This document shows, one piece after another, positions 11,007-16,025 of a DNA stretch of 48,406 nucleotides. The DNA lies in contig CALVJW010000009.1 in NCBI GenBank assembly GCA_944332435.1, positions 1 through 48,406 of the forward strand. Direction: 5' to 3'. The notes under the pieces are model-generated. The model was not told where the DNA came from. It ran no database searches and was given only the letters and a program-made list of their open reading frames with translations. This DNA comes from an uncultured Bacilli bacterium (GTDB lineage: Bacteria > Bacillota_I > Bacilli_A > RF39 > UBA660). The position numbers and the translations under genes are program-made. Positions within the stretch are counted from its first letter, which is position 1, and each line of letters begins with the position of its first letter.

Positions 11007-11083
11007 TAAAAGGATAACATCATTTCGACTTTACATTCGACAAAAGGAGAGATTTTTTTCTATAGGTGCGTATTATAATTTTG

Positions 11084-11092
11084 TGCTATAAT
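11084..11092 (+). promoter_or_regulatory. Extended -10 promoter of the sortase gene
   Basis: TGCTATAAT is a perfect extended -10 box; no good -35 box is seen. The predicted transcript starts near 11099, nine bases before the ATG at 11108. This rules out the longer frame starting at 11066. Confidence 0.7.
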
Positions 11093-11107
11093 AGAACTGG
11101 TGATGCT

Positions 11108-12049
11108 ATGAAAATAAACCTGAAACATAAAAATACTTCAAAAAATATTGAAGCTTATGGAAAAATAGTCGACTTAGCTGATAATGAACAAATGTCTACT
11201 GTTATGAAAGAAAAAGAGAAAAAAGAAATCATCAAAAAGATGACGAAAAGACAGTATTTTTGGATTATCATCTTACTCATATCTCTCCTCATTTTGTCAT
11301 TTGCTGGATTTAAAATACTAAGCTGGGAACAAGACAATAAAAAAACAAGTAAGCAAATTGAAGAAATTGATAAAACAATAAATGTGGAAGAAATTCCTGC
11401 CTCTAATAAAGATACTTTAGTAAATGAGCCAAAAAAAGACGATAAAAATAATGATTATTGGAACTACATTAAGTTACCATTAATTAATGTCAATTTTAAT
11501 GATTTACTTAATAAAAACCCTGATACCGTTGCTTTCTTAAAAGTCAATGGAACAAATATTAATTATCCTGTTGTACAAACAAATGATAACAAATTTTACT
11601 TAACGCATTCATTTGATAAAACATATAATGAAGCTGGATGGGTATTTATGGATTATCGTAATGATATCAATCAATTAAGTGATAATACCATTATATATGC
11701 ACATGGTAGATGGGATACGACAATGTTTGGATCATTAAAAAATGTTTTTAAAAATAACTGGTACCAAAATACAGATAATTATGTGGTACACCTATCGACA
11801 CCAACATATAATAGTTTATGGCAAGTATTTTCTGTTTACACAATACCAACAGAGACCTATTATATTACAAGTAACTTCGGAACAGATGAATCCTATCAAA
11901 AATTCTTAACAACAATTCAAAACCGTAGTCAATACTCATTTAATGCAAATGTAAATACCAATGATAAGATTCTTACCTTATCAACTTGTCTAAATAATAA
12001 AGAAAAAGTTGTATTGCATGCAAAATTAATTAAATTACAATATAAGTAA
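11108..12049 (+). CDS. Class B-type sortase
   Basis: Membrane-anchored transpeptidase expected to join surface proteins to the cell wall. Residues 1-50 are basic and cytoplasmic, and a membrane helix lies near 53-75 (FWIIILLISLLILSFAGF). The sortase fold spans about 130-313. The catalytic His is in IIYAHGRWDTTMFGSL and the catalytic Cys in ILTLSTC. The usual Arg of the beta-8 strand after the Cys appears to be Lys here (NNKEKVVLHAKL, confirmed in the codons). The start at 11108 follows GGTGATG and fits the promoter. A likely substrate with an NPETFD signal is encoded 3 kb downstream on the other strand. Confidence 0.88.
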   Translation: MKINLKHKNTSKNIEAYGKIVDLADNEQMSTVMKEKEKKEIIKKMTKRQYFWIIILLISLLILSFAGFKILSWEQDNKKTSKQIEEIDKTINVEEIPASNKDTLVNEPKKDDKNNDYWNYIKLPLINVNFNDLLNKNPDTVAFLKVNGTNINYPVVQTNDNKFYLTHSFDKTYNEAGWVFMDYRNDINQLSDNTIIYAHGRWDTTMFGSLKNVFKNNWYQNTDNYVVHLSTPTYNSLWQVFSVYTIPTETYYITSNFGTDESYQKFLTTIQNRSQYSFNANVNTNDKILTLSTCLNNKEKVVLHAKLIKLQYK

Positions 12050-12137: not shown

Positions 12138-12175
12138 CATATCTTAATATTAGATTTGGAGTTGCTATCCAAATC
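12138..12175 (+). promoter_or_regulatory. CATAnnnTA motif and inverted repeat upstream of the 12204 gene
   Basis: CATATCTTA at 12138-12146 fits the sigma-E/sigma-K -10 pattern CATAnnnTA. It is followed by a perfect 8-bp dyad with a 7-nt loop, GATTTGGA / TCCAAATC (12153-12175), that would lie in the 5' leader. No convincing -35 box was seen, so the promoter is tentative; the dyad could be an mRNA stem or an operator. Confidence 0.35.
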
Positions 12176-12203: not shown

Positions 12204-13556
12204 ATGGCAAATAAACCGTTTGAATGTTCAACTGAAGGATTACAAATAGCTGGTAACCCGTCAAAACTATATAATATTGACTTAGCAACAGGGCAATTAA
12301 CAGAGCGTGGGGAAATTACTCCGGCATCTGTTTACAATGCAGCTGGTTTTAATATTAAAGACAATAATGTTTATGCAATGCGTGGAAATACTATGCTTAT
12401 TATCAACAATGATCAAACAATTGAAATTCTACCAATAATTCCCAATTTACCAGATCAATCTTATATTGCAGGTGACATAAACTTAGATGGACTATACTAT
12501 ATTTACTCACTATCTACACCACAAATCATATATATTGTTGACGTCGATCCACAATCACCAACCTATTTAAAACTAGTTGACCCAGTTACTAGATTAGAAC
12601 AAACGAATTCACCCTTTGGAATTCCTACTACAACCGCATTTTACGCAGATTGGGCCTTCAGTCCAATCGACAATAATTTATATGCAGCAATTAGTAATAC
12701 CAACACAGTTGCACGTATTAATCCATTAACAGGAGAACAAACAATTCTAACAACAACAGGATTACCTAATCCTAGTGAACTTCCTGCATATGGAGCCGCA
12801 TTTGCAGATAGCTCAGGAGCAATTTATTTTATTAATAATAATACAGGAAATATATATCGTACCGTTATCAATGGAAACAATGCGACTGCTAATTTATTTT
12901 CTATTGCCGAACCAGCCACTGCAAATGATGGGGCAAGATGTGCATTAGCACCAATTAATGCTCTTACAATTGAAAAAATAGTAGACAAAGTTGTAGCCAA
13001 ACCTAACGATATTCTTACTTATACAATCATCGTAAAAAACATCTCATTATTAACTTTAACAAATGTTATAATTACAGATGTAGTTCCTAACAATACTACA
13101 ATAATTACAGACTCAATAAAACTAAATGGTACTTCTATTACTGGTAATATCAATACTGGAATTAATATCGATAGTTTAGTTTCCAATCAAGTAGCAACGC
13201 TTACTTTCCAAGTATTAGTAAATAGTAATATTCCTACACCAACAACGATTATTAATACTGCATCCGTAACTTTTGATTCTAGTGATACTACAAATAGTAA
13301 TCCAGTTGAAACATTAGTCACTAGTGATGAATGTCAACCATTAAACGATATTATAACAAGTGTCGCCTTAGAACAAACTGCTCTTTCACATATTTTAAAT
13401 GCCAAAGGAGAAAAAATTCAAAAAGCCCAAAAACTAAATTTAGAAAATAATGATTTAATCAACATCAACAAATCTGTAGAATCCATGATTAATACAATTA
13501 CAAAATTAGAATTAATATTACAGAACAAATTAAAGCTATATCAAAAAAATAAATAA
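12204..13556 (+). CDS. Leaderless beta-propeller/DUF11 protein with C-terminal HILNAxGEKIQK module
   Basis: A 450-residue protein in three parts. Residues 1 to about 250 have propeller-like repeats (SKLYNIDLATGQLTERGEI, NLYAAISNTNTVARINPLTG) resembling DUF6923. Residues 253-375 form a DUF11-type Ig-like repeat (DKVVAKPNDILTYTIIVKN, NTASVTFDS). Residues 377-450 are a helical module (SVALEQTALSHILNAKGEKI) repeated in the next two genes. DUF11 proteins are usually exported, but no signal peptide, membrane segment or sorting signal exists here. This suits assembly from the mother-cell cytoplasm onto a spore, which is an inference. The start follows AGAAAGGAGAA. Confidence 0.8.
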   Translation: MANKPFECSTEGLQIAGNPSKLYNIDLATGQLTERGEITPASVYNAAGFNIKDNNVYAMRGNTMLIINNDQTIEILPIIPNLPDQSYIAGDINLDGLYYIYSLSTPQIIYIVDVDPQSPTYLKLVDPVTRLEQTNSPFGIPTTTAFYADWAFSPIDNNLYAAISNTNTVARINPLTGEQTILTTTGLPNPSELPAYGAAFADSSGAIYFINNNTGNIYRTVINGNNATANLFSIAEPATANDGARCALAPINALTIEKIVDKVVAKPNDILTYTIIVKNISLLTLTNVIITDVVPNNTTIITDSIKLNGTSITGNINTGINIDSLVSNQVATLTFQVLVNSNIPTPTTIINTASVTFDSSDTTNSNPVETLVTSDECQPLNDIITSVALEQTALSHILNAKGEKIQKAQKLNLENNDLININKSVESMINTITKLELILQNKLKLYQKNK

Positions 13557-13577
13557 GATAAACACATATTCATTATT

Positions 13578-13600
13578 AATATATCATCATATGATATATT
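13578..13600 (+). promoter_or_regulatory. AT-rich palindrome with CATAnnnTA motif before the 13629 gene
   Basis: A perfect 10-bp inverted repeat, AATATATCAT / ATGATATATT, has a 3-nt loop. It contains CATATGATA (13588-13596), which fits the sigma-E/K -10 pattern. No T-run follows, so it is not a terminator. The -35 spacing is not convincing. Confidence 0.3.
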
Positions 13601-13628
13601 GTAAATTACATTAGAAAGGAGAAAAAAT

Positions 13629-13907
13629 ATGGGAATGCCTATTATAACACCTGGGGAAGGTAAACGTTGCCAAGCAATTTCCGATATCATTACCAGTGTT
13701 GCCTTAGAACAAACTGCCCTATCACACATTTTAAACGCCGAAGGAGAAAAAATTCAAAAAATTGTAGCCGTTGCCGACAATGTTGACGATATGCTTGAAG
13801 TAAATAAATCTGTAGAATCCATGGTTAATACGATTACTAAATTAGAATTTATATTACATAATAAACTTGAATTATTTAAAGATTGTATTTGTACAGAATG
13901 CTTATAA
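13629..13907 (+). CDS. Stand-alone HILNAEGEKIQK-module protein
   Basis: A 92-residue protein that is almost entirely the helical module found at the C-termini of its two neighbours. After a short N-terminus (MGMPIITPGEGKRCQ) comes SVALEQTALSHILNAEGEKI, then NKSVESMVNTITKLEFIL, ending in a Cys-containing tail (CICTECL). The first half is nearly identical to the 12204 protein's module. Two helical stretches with heptad-like spacing suggest self-assembly or binding to the modules of the neighbours; this is an inference. It has no signal peptide. The start is preceded by TAGAAAGGAGAA. I know no established function for the module. Confidence 0.8.
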   Translation: MGMPIITPGEGKRCQAISDIITSVALEQTALSHILNAEGEKIQKIVAVADNVDDMLEVNKSVESMVNTITKLEFILHNKLELFKDCICTECL

Positions 13908-13944
13908 TCTAATGTTTTTCTAACATTATTAATCACAATTATTT

Positions 13945-13986
13945 ATTAGTCCTAATTCATATTTTATTGAATTAAGACTTTATTTA
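13945..13986 (+). terminator. Terminator after the stand-alone module gene
   Basis: AGTCCTAATTCA pairs with TGAATTAAGACT (one C-A mismatch) across an 8-nt loop, followed by TTATTTATT. A weaker hairpin (TAATGTT/AACATTA) sits just upstream at 13910-13928. Confidence 0.55.
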
Positions 13987-14003
13987 TTACAATAGAAAAT
14001 GTA

Positions 14004-14035
14004 ACAATATCGTCAATTTTACATATCATACAGTA
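14004..14035 (+). promoter_or_regulatory. Candidate mother-cell (sigma-K/E type) promoter of the 14046 gene
   Basis: AC at 14004-14005, a 16-bp gap and CATATCATA at 14022-14030 match the sigma-K pattern AC-N16/17-CATAnnnTA. An overlapping CATACAGT at 14027-14034 with AATATC 15 bases upstream resembles a sigma-E promoter. Both would start transcription very close to the GGTGATG ribosome site, so the exact box is uncertain. Confidence 0.4.
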
Positions 14036-14045
14036 TGGTGATGAT

Positions 14046-15068
14046 ATGAAAATTTTAAAAACAATACCTTTAAAAAATTTAACAGTATATACAAACGGCT
14101 TTTATAAAAATAATCATTTTTTATTTCAACAAACATGTAACAAATTAATAGATCAATACGATTGTAAATTTGATAAAATAAATCAATTTGTTTTATCAAA
14201 CTTATATTTAACAATTTCGCCAATTAAAAATAAGTTCTATGCCAGTAAAAAAAATGATTTCTGTAATATTTATATTTTAGATTGTAATTACAACGAAATT
14301 GATGTAATCTCATTAAAAAAAGTTCCAACTTGTTATTTAGGAGATATCATCTCAATTGCAATAAATCAAAAAGATAATAAAATCCTATTAGCAACAAAAA
14401 CAAAAGTTTACTCTATTACACTAAATGGCTACTTTATACGAGATGAGTTAACACAATCAGCATATCAAACAATTAGTAAAACCGATTATGATACAATTTT
14501 AACAAAAAAATTAGATGGTAGCTGTTGTTTACAAAAATTTCATGTTTTGGATACAAACATCACAGCTATTGCCTATATTCATTGTAAGATAATAATTGCA
14601 TATTCCATTGATAATCAAGCTTTCATCGCAACAATATCAAAAAGTAGAAATCTTTGTAATCCATGCTTTATCGAAAATAATATTACCATTAATGCAATTA
14701 TGTCTAATTGCATTAAAACTTACTTATTAGTTACAAAGTGTAAATGCTATAACTATATATATATGATTGACTATAATAAAAAATATAATCAGAGAGATTG
14801 CTACTGCTACAGAAAACATAATAGTAAAAATGATATTATTGAATCAATTGCTTTAATCGAGGCTTCTTTAGCTCATATTTTAAACGCTGAAGGTGAAAAA
14901 ATTCAAAAAGCTGTAAAAAAACACAAAAATTTATGTGAATTATTATCTATTAATAATTCAGTAACTGATACGATCAATAAAGTCACTTTATTAGAACAAG
15001 TCTTATTAAATAAATTAGAGATTGCATCAAGCCAATGCGATGAAAAAAAAGAATGTAATGAAAAATAA
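14046..15068 (+). CDS. Cysteine-rich propeller-like protein with HILNAEGEKIQK module
   Basis: A 340-residue protein whose first 260 residues alternate short strands and turns with many aromatic residues (LTISPIKNKFYASKK, DIISIAINQKDNKILLATK). This suggests a divergent beta-propeller, although no named family is recognised. Cysteines are frequent, clustering at CYCY just before the C-terminal module. Residues 261-340 carry SIALIEASLAHILNAEGEKI and the second helix LSINNSVTDTINKVTLLEQ, the third copy of the module in this cluster. No signal peptide or membrane segment is present. It has its own putative promoter and is followed by a strong terminator. Spore-surface location is inferred. Confidence 0.75.
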   Translation: MKILKTIPLKNLTVYTNGFYKNNHFLFQQTCNKLIDQYDCKFDKINQFVLSNLYLTISPIKNKFYASKKNDFCNIYILDCNYNEIDVISLKKVPTCYLGDIISIAINQKDNKILLATKTKVYSITLNGYFIRDELTQSAYQTISKTDYDTILTKKLDGSCCLQKFHVLDTNITAIAYIHCKIIIAYSIDNQAFIATISKSRNLCNPCFIENNITINAIMSNCIKTYLLVTKCKCYNYIYMIDYNKKYNQRDCYCYRKHNSKNDIIESIALIEASLAHILNAEGEKIQKAVKKHKNLCELLSINNSVTDTINKVTLLEQVLLNKLEIASSQCDEKKECNEK

Positions 15069-15102: not shown

Positions 15103-15133
15103 AAAACCTCGTTTTTACCTAAAACGAGGTTTT
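15103..15133. terminator. Bidirectional terminator
   Basis: A perfect 13-bp stem, AAAACCTCGTTTT / AAAACGAGGTTTT, has a 5-nt loop. It serves the rightward 14046 gene and the leftward surface-protein gene. Confidence 0.9.
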
Positions 15134-15143
15134 ATTGTTTTAA

Positions 15144-16025
15144 TTAAGCTTGAAATACTTTTTTAGAACTAATTACTAATGCTCCAAATCCTAAGATAGC
15201 AAGTGCAATATAAGTTGCAATACCATCAAAAGTCTCTGGGTTTTCACTTGGTTTTTCATCTGGTTTTGGTGTAGGTGTAGGATTTGGTGTTGGAGTTGGT
15301 TCAACAATTGTTTCGTCGCCGTTAACTGTTACTCCATCTTTTGCTTCATTAGAAGTTGCTACTACATCACCATTAGCATCTTTTAACACTAATGTTTTTC
15401 CATCCGTTGCTAATTTCATAGTAGAACCTTCTTCATTCTTAACAATAACTTCTCCTAAGTTATCATTTTCAGCAAGAACTAATAATTCATCTTGAGAACC
15501 ATTAATAACACCGTTCATTGTTAATGATGGGGTATTATTAACACCTACTCCTTGCCCAAATTCAATTCCATATGCATTTGCATTCATTGTTAAATCAATA
15601 ATTGTTGCAGCACCACCATTTAATAATACTGCTCCAAATCCTGAATTCGTAATTGTCGCTTTATTAAATACGACATTACCACCAGCATATGCTTGAACAC
15701 CATATTTTTTTGCTCCATTAAGTTTTACATTATTTAATGTAAGTGTAGCATTATTATTAACCGCAATAATACTACCATTTGGTCCATCATTAACAAATGA
15801 TGTTCCTGCACTAATTGTGAAATCTCCACCATTTAATACAACATCTTTACTTACATATAATGGTGCATTGACTTCTACATCACTTGTAAGTGTAACTTCT
15901 CCACCTGCTTCTAACGCAGCTTTCAAAGTTTCTTCATTATTTGCTTCTAACGCACTAACATTTAACATTGGTACAGCAACAATAGCAAATACAGCCATAC
16001 CGATTAATCTTTTTAAATTTTTCAT
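15144..16025 (-). CDS. Sortase-anchored surface protein with beta-helix repeats and NPETFD signal
   Basis: A 293-residue exported protein. Residues 1-25 are a signal peptide (KRLIGMAVFAIVAVPMLNVSALEA). Residues 35-190 have right-handed beta-helix-like rungs rich in Asn, Gly and Val (TLTLNNVKLNGAKKYGVQAY). A Pro/Thr linker (TPTPNPTPTPKPDEKP) would span the wall. At 262-268 comes NPETFDG, then a hydrophobic stretch (IATYIALAILGFGALVI) and a short basic tail, SSKKVFQA. That is the layout of a sortase sorting signal, and NPxTx is the class B type; the sortase at 11108 is the obvious candidate enzyme. The start follows AGGAGGAGA. Confidence 0.85.
   Translation of the reverse strand: MKNLKRLIGMAVFAIVAVPMLNVSALEANNEETLKAALEAGGEVTLTSDVEVNAPLYVSKDVVLNGGDFTISAGTSFVNDGPNGSIIAVNNNATLTLNNVKLNGAKKYGVQAYAGGNVVFNKATITNSGFGAVLLNGGAATIIDLTMNANAYGIEFGQGVGVNNTPSLTMNGVINGSQDELLVLAENDNLGEVIVKNEEGSTMKLATDGKTLVLKDANGDVVATSNEAKDGVTVNGDETIVEPTPTPNPTPTPKPDEKPSENPETFDGIATYIALAILGFGALVISSKKVFQA

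Follow-up and report, generated by a model that had tools for sequence, protein, structure and literature searches.

Known endospore appendage (ENA) proteins are believed to be produced inside the mother cell and not secreted. The S- and L-ENA pili of the Bacillus cereus group are endospore fibers built from small subunits. In F-ENA, DUF4183 alone makes the fiber, and DUF4183 fused to other parts provides the anchor and tip, which imitate the axial contact of the fiber domain (PMC11952670). A structure of A-ENA, a solved fiber from spores, has already been deposited (PDB 9IHH, "Ex vivo spore-silk A-ENA fibers", released 2026-03-04). No papers on A-ENA were found in a literature search that had subscription literature and preprints outside its reach.

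Here, a window of 48,406 nucleotides (the whole stretch of DNA analyzed, from an uncultured Bacilli bacterium) was found to contain three adjacent genes whose products share a module with 9IHH. The 92-aa product of the middle gene is most likely a subunit of an A-type endospore appendage. The products of genes 1 and 3 are most likely accessory subunits, a DUF6923-DUF11 rod and a Cys-rich beta-propeller plugged into the fiber. The sequence match to 9IHH is full-length with the N-terminal arm, at 42-44% identity, and the two-helix fold is common to both, although the quaternary structure could differ. The window's system differs from 9IHH in that the module is also C-terminal on two large adjacent proteins and in its host, a metagenome-assembled genome of about 1 Mb from what is probably a gut bacterium.

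The cluster resembles F-ENA in combining a small fiber domain with larger proteins bearing the same domain (F-Anchor, F-BclA; PMC11952670), and DUF11 occurs both in gene 1 and in a Clostridial F-Anchor (PMC11952670). However, the F-ENA protomer, a DUF4183 trimer, is unrelated, and there is no DUF4183 among the window's Pfam matches. The S-/L-ENA (Ena1/Ena3-type) protomer family likewise has no Pfam or NCBIfam match in the window. Among BclA-type collagen-like proteins, WP_129093701 of B. velezensis has the same module at its N-terminus, with an arm-like start. The window proteins differ from this type in bearing propeller and DUF11 parts and have no Gly-X-Y repeats, the longest GXX run being one triplet in the two large proteins. 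Lastly, choice-of-anchor A proteins (TIGR04215) bearing the module lack a leader peptide and are anchored by the fiber module; their domain is absent from the window. No papers linking choice-of-anchor A with spores were found in the literature search.

The three genes and their shared module

The cluster contains the following features:

12204..13556, +: gene 1, leaderless DUF6923-DUF11 protein with a C-terminal A-ENA module, 450 aa (open reading frame, Pfam, module alignment)
12249..12944, +: DUF6923 domain of gene 1, residues 16-247 (Pfam E=1.7e-28)
12963..13304, +: DUF11 (Ig-like) domain of gene 1, residues 254-367 (Pfam E=1.8e-11; TIGR01451 2.6e-11)
13329..13544, +: A-ENA-like module of gene 1, residues 376-447, lacking the N-terminal arm (nearest to the gene 2 module)
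13629..13907, +: gene 2, stand-alone A-ENA-like fiber subunit, 92 aa (sequence, profile and Foldseek matches to PDB 9ihh_A)
13629..13661, +: conserved N-terminal arm of gene 2, MGMPIITPGEG (M1, P4 and I6 in at least 90% of 38 sequences)
13662..13880, +: two-helix module of gene 2, with helices predicted at 13-48 and 52-82 (AlphaFold2 pLDDT 87.9)
14046..15068, +: gene 3, leaderless Cys-rich beta-propeller with a C-terminal A-ENA module, 340 aa, 18 Cys (open reading frame, AlphaFold2)
14046..14771, +: predicted beta-propeller of gene 3, residues 1-242 (AlphaFold2; fold likeness to 3mbr)
14817..15029, +: A-ENA-like module of gene 3, residues 258-328 (profile match)
15103..15133, no strand assigned: bidirectional terminator-like hairpin at the end of the cluster (hairpin search)

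The first-pass annotation had proposed that the three proteins share a C-terminal module and lack signal peptides, and both points were confirmed. An alignment of the last 70-75 residues has about 30 columns in which the three proteins agree, and the shared module is about 70-80 residues long. No hydrophobic N-terminal segment was seen in any of the three, whereas the leader-bearing gene at 15144 reaches 2.35 on the same hydrophobicity scale. The middle protein had been described as the module alone; its 92 residues do hold little else, but they include the arm MGMPIITPGEG, and stand-alone copies elsewhere keep its pattern.

The module of gene 1 is about 61-66% identical to that of gene 2 and is probably, judging by sequence, a recent local duplicate of it, while the gene 3 module is about 47-49% identical to that of gene 2. 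In the DNA, a 93-nt repeat occurs in three copies, two of which are 84% and 63% identical to the first. A search of 942,783 bp of the genome (66% complete) with the module profile returned exactly three copies (E=1.6e-43, 1.5e-32 and 3.1e-28), far beyond chance. Sequences resembling Shine-Dalgarno sites precede genes 1 and 2. An Rfam search of the window gave no match.

Gene 3 had previously been called Cys-rich and propeller-like, a description that fits its 18 Cys and its model. AlphaFold2, run with 17 relatives, gave a confident beta-propeller for residues 1-242 followed by two long helices. The best fold matches to the propeller scored Z about 20 over 206 residues, led by that of a glutaminyl cyclase, 3MBR (Z 21.3, rmsd 2.6 over 206 residues, 10% identity), and the N-terminal part of the protein matched no Pfam or NCBIfam family. 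A glutaminyl cyclase or NHL function was considered and rejected, as the likeness is one of fold, with no match to an enzyme family in Pfam or NCBIfam.

The module matches a subunit of spore-derived fibers

The module is covered by no model in Pfam or NCBIfam. Matches to Dynactin_p22 (1.7e-3) and EzrA (0.013) fell below the cut-offs and were set aside as coiled-coil noise, as were HopQ matches to the module profile at about 0.1. When the gene 2 protein was compared with all PDB sequences, the sole significant match was 9ihh_A (E=1.2e-13), covering residues 1-87 of 92 with the arm included. A profile of 38 sequences strengthened this match (E=1.1e-24), with the runner-up at 0.09.

For the 92-aa protein, AlphaFold2 predicts two helices (13-48 and 52-82) that form a hairpin (pLDDT 88); in this monomer model the arm is less confident than the rest. 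With this model, Foldseek ranked 9ihh first (E=4.9e-4, TM 0.73/0.71), followed by a second match at E=1.1. VIA-align gave Z 9.1 and rmsd 3.5 over 90 residues against 9ihh, a Z that alone is typical of generic hairpins; two-helix hairpins easily produce middling structural matches, and many coiled coils are matched at Z 7-9. Since the aligned range of 9ihh starts at residue 2, the arm is evidently ordered in the fiber model. The evidence for homology to 9IHH comes mainly from sequence, with the structure in agreement.

Occurrence and partner domains of the module

A scan of 84,980 species genomes yielded 386 module-encoding stretches, the best 80 of which were examined as loci. Among these 80, the carriers are mostly uncultured Clostridia, joined by Flavonifractor, Butyricicoccus, Intestinimonas, Angelakisella, Longibaculum, Sarcina, Anaerocolumna and several Bacilli. 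No relatives of the module were found in phage records. The cluster is patchy in its distribution, being carried by 2 of 38 sampled genomes of the window's own family (the window's genome and G097).

Stand-alone copies of about 90-105 aa, present at 67 loci, are by far the commonest form among the loci examined. They keep an N-terminus of the form M-[GS]-M-P-x-I, and M1, P4 and I6 are each found in at least 90% of 38 sequences. Copies fused at the C-terminus of larger proteins have no N-terminal arm, and this difference suggests that the fused copies end the fiber. The partner domains in 60 larger module proteins include choice-of-anchor A/pAdhesive_15 (21, mostly with a Thr/Ser-rich linker to the module), DUF11 (9), SdrD-B (8), choice-of-anchor G (2) and Ig-like domains. 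Cys-rich proteins, with or without a propeller, are also fused to the module. A three-part layout of a stand-alone copy, a Cys-rich fusion and a display fusion recurs at 8 of the loci examined, counting the window.

Most fused modules (43/50) are nearest to the fused module of another locus; the module of gene 3, for example, is nearest to that of a Cys-rich propeller in locus L056. Co-evolution of fused modules with stand-alone copies from the same locus was rejected, as it fits only 7 of 50. By these sequence comparisons, the fused modules appear to be old classes of their own, with gene 1 of the window as an exception.

Sporulation genes, promoters and export signals

The window's genome encodes SpoIVA (1.4e-109), Spo0A (Spo0A_C, 5.3e-40) and sigma-K (307 bits over the family cut-off). 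In a sample of the class (296 genomes), SpoIVA was found in 15/16 module carriers compared to 75/280 other genomes (Fisher p=9e-8, uncorrected for phylogeny). SpoIVA was missing from one carrier, whose genome is 55% complete, and is present in another genome of the same genus. A phylum sample, which overlaps the class sample, has 11 carriers, all with SpoIVA, and 36 of the 37 genomes behind the examined loci encode it too. In the Clostridia sample, the difference was not significant (10/11 carriers and 95/137 others, p=0.12) because most genomes there are SpoIVA-positive. The module is therefore not found mainly in non-sporulating species, a distribution that the first-pass annotation had named as evidence against a spore role; the carriers are sporulators by gene content. 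The profile search it had suggested listed choice-of-anchor A, DUF11 and SdrD-B as partners and SpoIVA-positive genomes as carriers.

The family of the window's genome has genomes of about 0.8-1.6 Mb, 32 of 38 with SpoIVA, and the window's own genome has Spo0A and sigma-K as well. It seems that even the very small genomes of this family belong to sporulating bacteria.

The sigma-K consensus of B. subtilis is AC, 16-17 bases and CATANNNTA. This consensus was fixed before counting, and full matches were sought at most 120 bp upstream of each gene. AC-N16/17-CATANNNTA preceded 24 of 61 stand-alone and 11 of 51 fused module genes, compared to 9 of the 835 other genes at these loci (2% of the AT-rich ones) and 0.5-1.1% in dinucleotide-preserving shuffles. 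Sigma-K-type promoters are thus 20-36 times more frequent before module genes than in the background. In the window, the following candidates were found:

12138..12146, +: sigma-K-type -10 element CATATCTTA upstream of gene 1; the -35 element differs from AC
13588..13596, +: sigma-K-type -10 element CATATGATA upstream of gene 2; the -35 element differs from AC
14004..14030, +: sigma-K-type promoter of gene 3, AC-N16-CATATCATA, a full match to the B. subtilis consensus

A sigma-E-type match, CATACAGT, overlaps the gene 3 promoter, and the leader behind the sigma-K-type match would be very short. A scan for sigma-70 promoters gave no more matches than shuffled sequence. A leader-like hydrophobic N-terminus was found in none of 140 module proteins.

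A proposed fiber and its alternatives

We propose that the cluster encodes an A-type endospore appendage with armless siblings docked on it, and we put the probability of this reading at about 0.8. The F-ENA design serves as the template for the mechanism. Late in sporulation, mother-cell RNA polymerase with sigma-K would transcribe all three genes, and the products, having no export signal, would remain in the mother-cell cytoplasm. The 92-aa hairpin subunit would polymerize through helix packing and its N-terminal arm, which would reach the neighboring subunit, forming a fiber on the forespore surface that lysis of the mother cell would release. The 450-aa and 340-aa proteins would dock on this fiber with their C-terminal modules as imitation subunits. 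Their armless modules could receive an arm contact but not give one and, since they lack the arm, these two proteins would probably sit at one fiber end or act as terminators. We infer polymerization in this species, its polarity, and the tip and anchor roles. Our best guess, at roughly even odds, is that the DUF11 rod is an outward tip or adhesin and that the Cys-rich propeller is a link to the Cys-rich spore coat.

This proposal keeps the outline of the first-pass annotation. Assembly onto the spore from the mother cell is supported computationally by homology to a spore-derived fiber subunit, by Spo0A, sigma-K and SpoIVA in the genome, by the sigma-K-type promoters and by the missing leaders. 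Because the module matches one solved structure, the spore-silk 9IHH, the spore idea can be sharpened to A-ENA. The stand-alone module had been seen as a self-assembling core on which the other two proteins display their domains; computationally this holds, given that the gene 2 protein is a full-length homologue of a fiber subunit from spores, and the core is best read as a fiber rather than a particle.

Another explanation is that the module is a docking tag of the spore coat or exosporium, with the three proteins side by side on a coat layer and no long fibers. The old, separate classes of fused modules (43/50) would be expected of specialized tags, and the Cys-rich partners resemble coat proteins. 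On the other hand, the only solved relative is a spore fiber that covers the whole stand-alone protein, arm included, and the predominance of stand-alone copies (67 loci) is what would be expected of a major fiber subunit. We consider a docking tag unlikely. Much less probable still is that these are vegetative cell-surface or biofilm proteins that use an unrecognized export route, perhaps tied to the nearby class B sortase (11066-12049). Vegetative surfaces are where domains such as DUF11, SdrD-B and choice-of-anchor A usually occur, and the cluster lies between a sortase gene and the gene of a putative sortase substrate. However, the 140 relatives have no leader or hydrophobic N-terminus, sigma-K-type promoters precede the module genes, the carriers are sporulators by gene content and 9IHH itself comes from spores. 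The hairpin could also be an ordinary cytoplasmic oligomerization coil with no spore role, its match to 9IHH reflecting generic helix similarity, in line with the Z values of 7-9 that such hairpins reach against many coiled coils. We give this the least credence of all, since the sequence matches to 9IHH (E=1e-13 to 1e-24) have no competitor, the N-terminal arm is common to both and the module has its associations with sporulation.

If the cluster does encode such an appendage, spores of the host probably bear fibers decorated with propeller and Ig-like heads. Docking on a spore fiber accounts for classic "surface" domains that have no export signal, and the plug-in module points to a natural way of mounting proteins on spores for display. 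A broader reading, on which we are evenly divided, is that A-ENA is a general modular display fiber on the spores of gut Firmicutes, in which any large domain could be mounted via a copy of the subunit and the arm decides whether the fiber extends or ends. The mountable domains may include the choice-of-anchor A adhesin, the DUF11/SdrD-B rod, the Cys-rich propeller and collagen. Many strict gut anaerobes pass between hosts as spores, whose surfaces are little characterized. The 386 subunit-encoding stretches in spore-forming Clostridia and Bacilli, lying beside adhesin-like plug-ins, provide testable spore-surface candidates, for example in Flavonifractor and Butyricicoccus. As far as could be checked outside subscription literature and preprints, there is no earlier description of the decorated variants, of the arm rule, of the sigma-K signature or of the spread in Clostridia.

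Neighboring genes and variant module proteins

The cluster is flanked by a class B sortase gene (11066-12049, +) and by a gene at 15144-16025 (-) for a leader-bearing beta-helix protein. The latter ends in a C-terminal sortase-like signal, NPETFDG followed by a hydrophobic stretch, an unusual sorting motif.

At the B. velezensis locus (L085, NZ_CP083716.1), WP_129093701, a collagen-like protein with an N-terminal A-ENA module and an arm-like start, is encoded together with a glycosyltransferase and a second module protein. The record that holds this locus, an 807-kb "plasmid" and the only one with module relatives to be labeled as such, is probably chromosomal because it carries metE and proBA. 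Another variant (L052:3564-5828, -) is a 755-aa protein with a Cys-rich propeller-like part and an A-ENA module, followed by about 430 more residues; it is possibly the single member that matches glycosyltransferase families.

In one group of Bacilli (L007, L014, L017, L018, L027 and L038), the stand-alone subunit continues at its C-terminus into an additional domain of about 100 aa, with which every subunit of the fiber would be decorated. At two other loci (L039:3310-5925 and L049:3348-5789), a module with an arm stands at the N-terminus of proteins of 800-870 aa. Since these modules keep the arm, unlike the C-terminal fusions, such proteins might decorate the fiber along its length.
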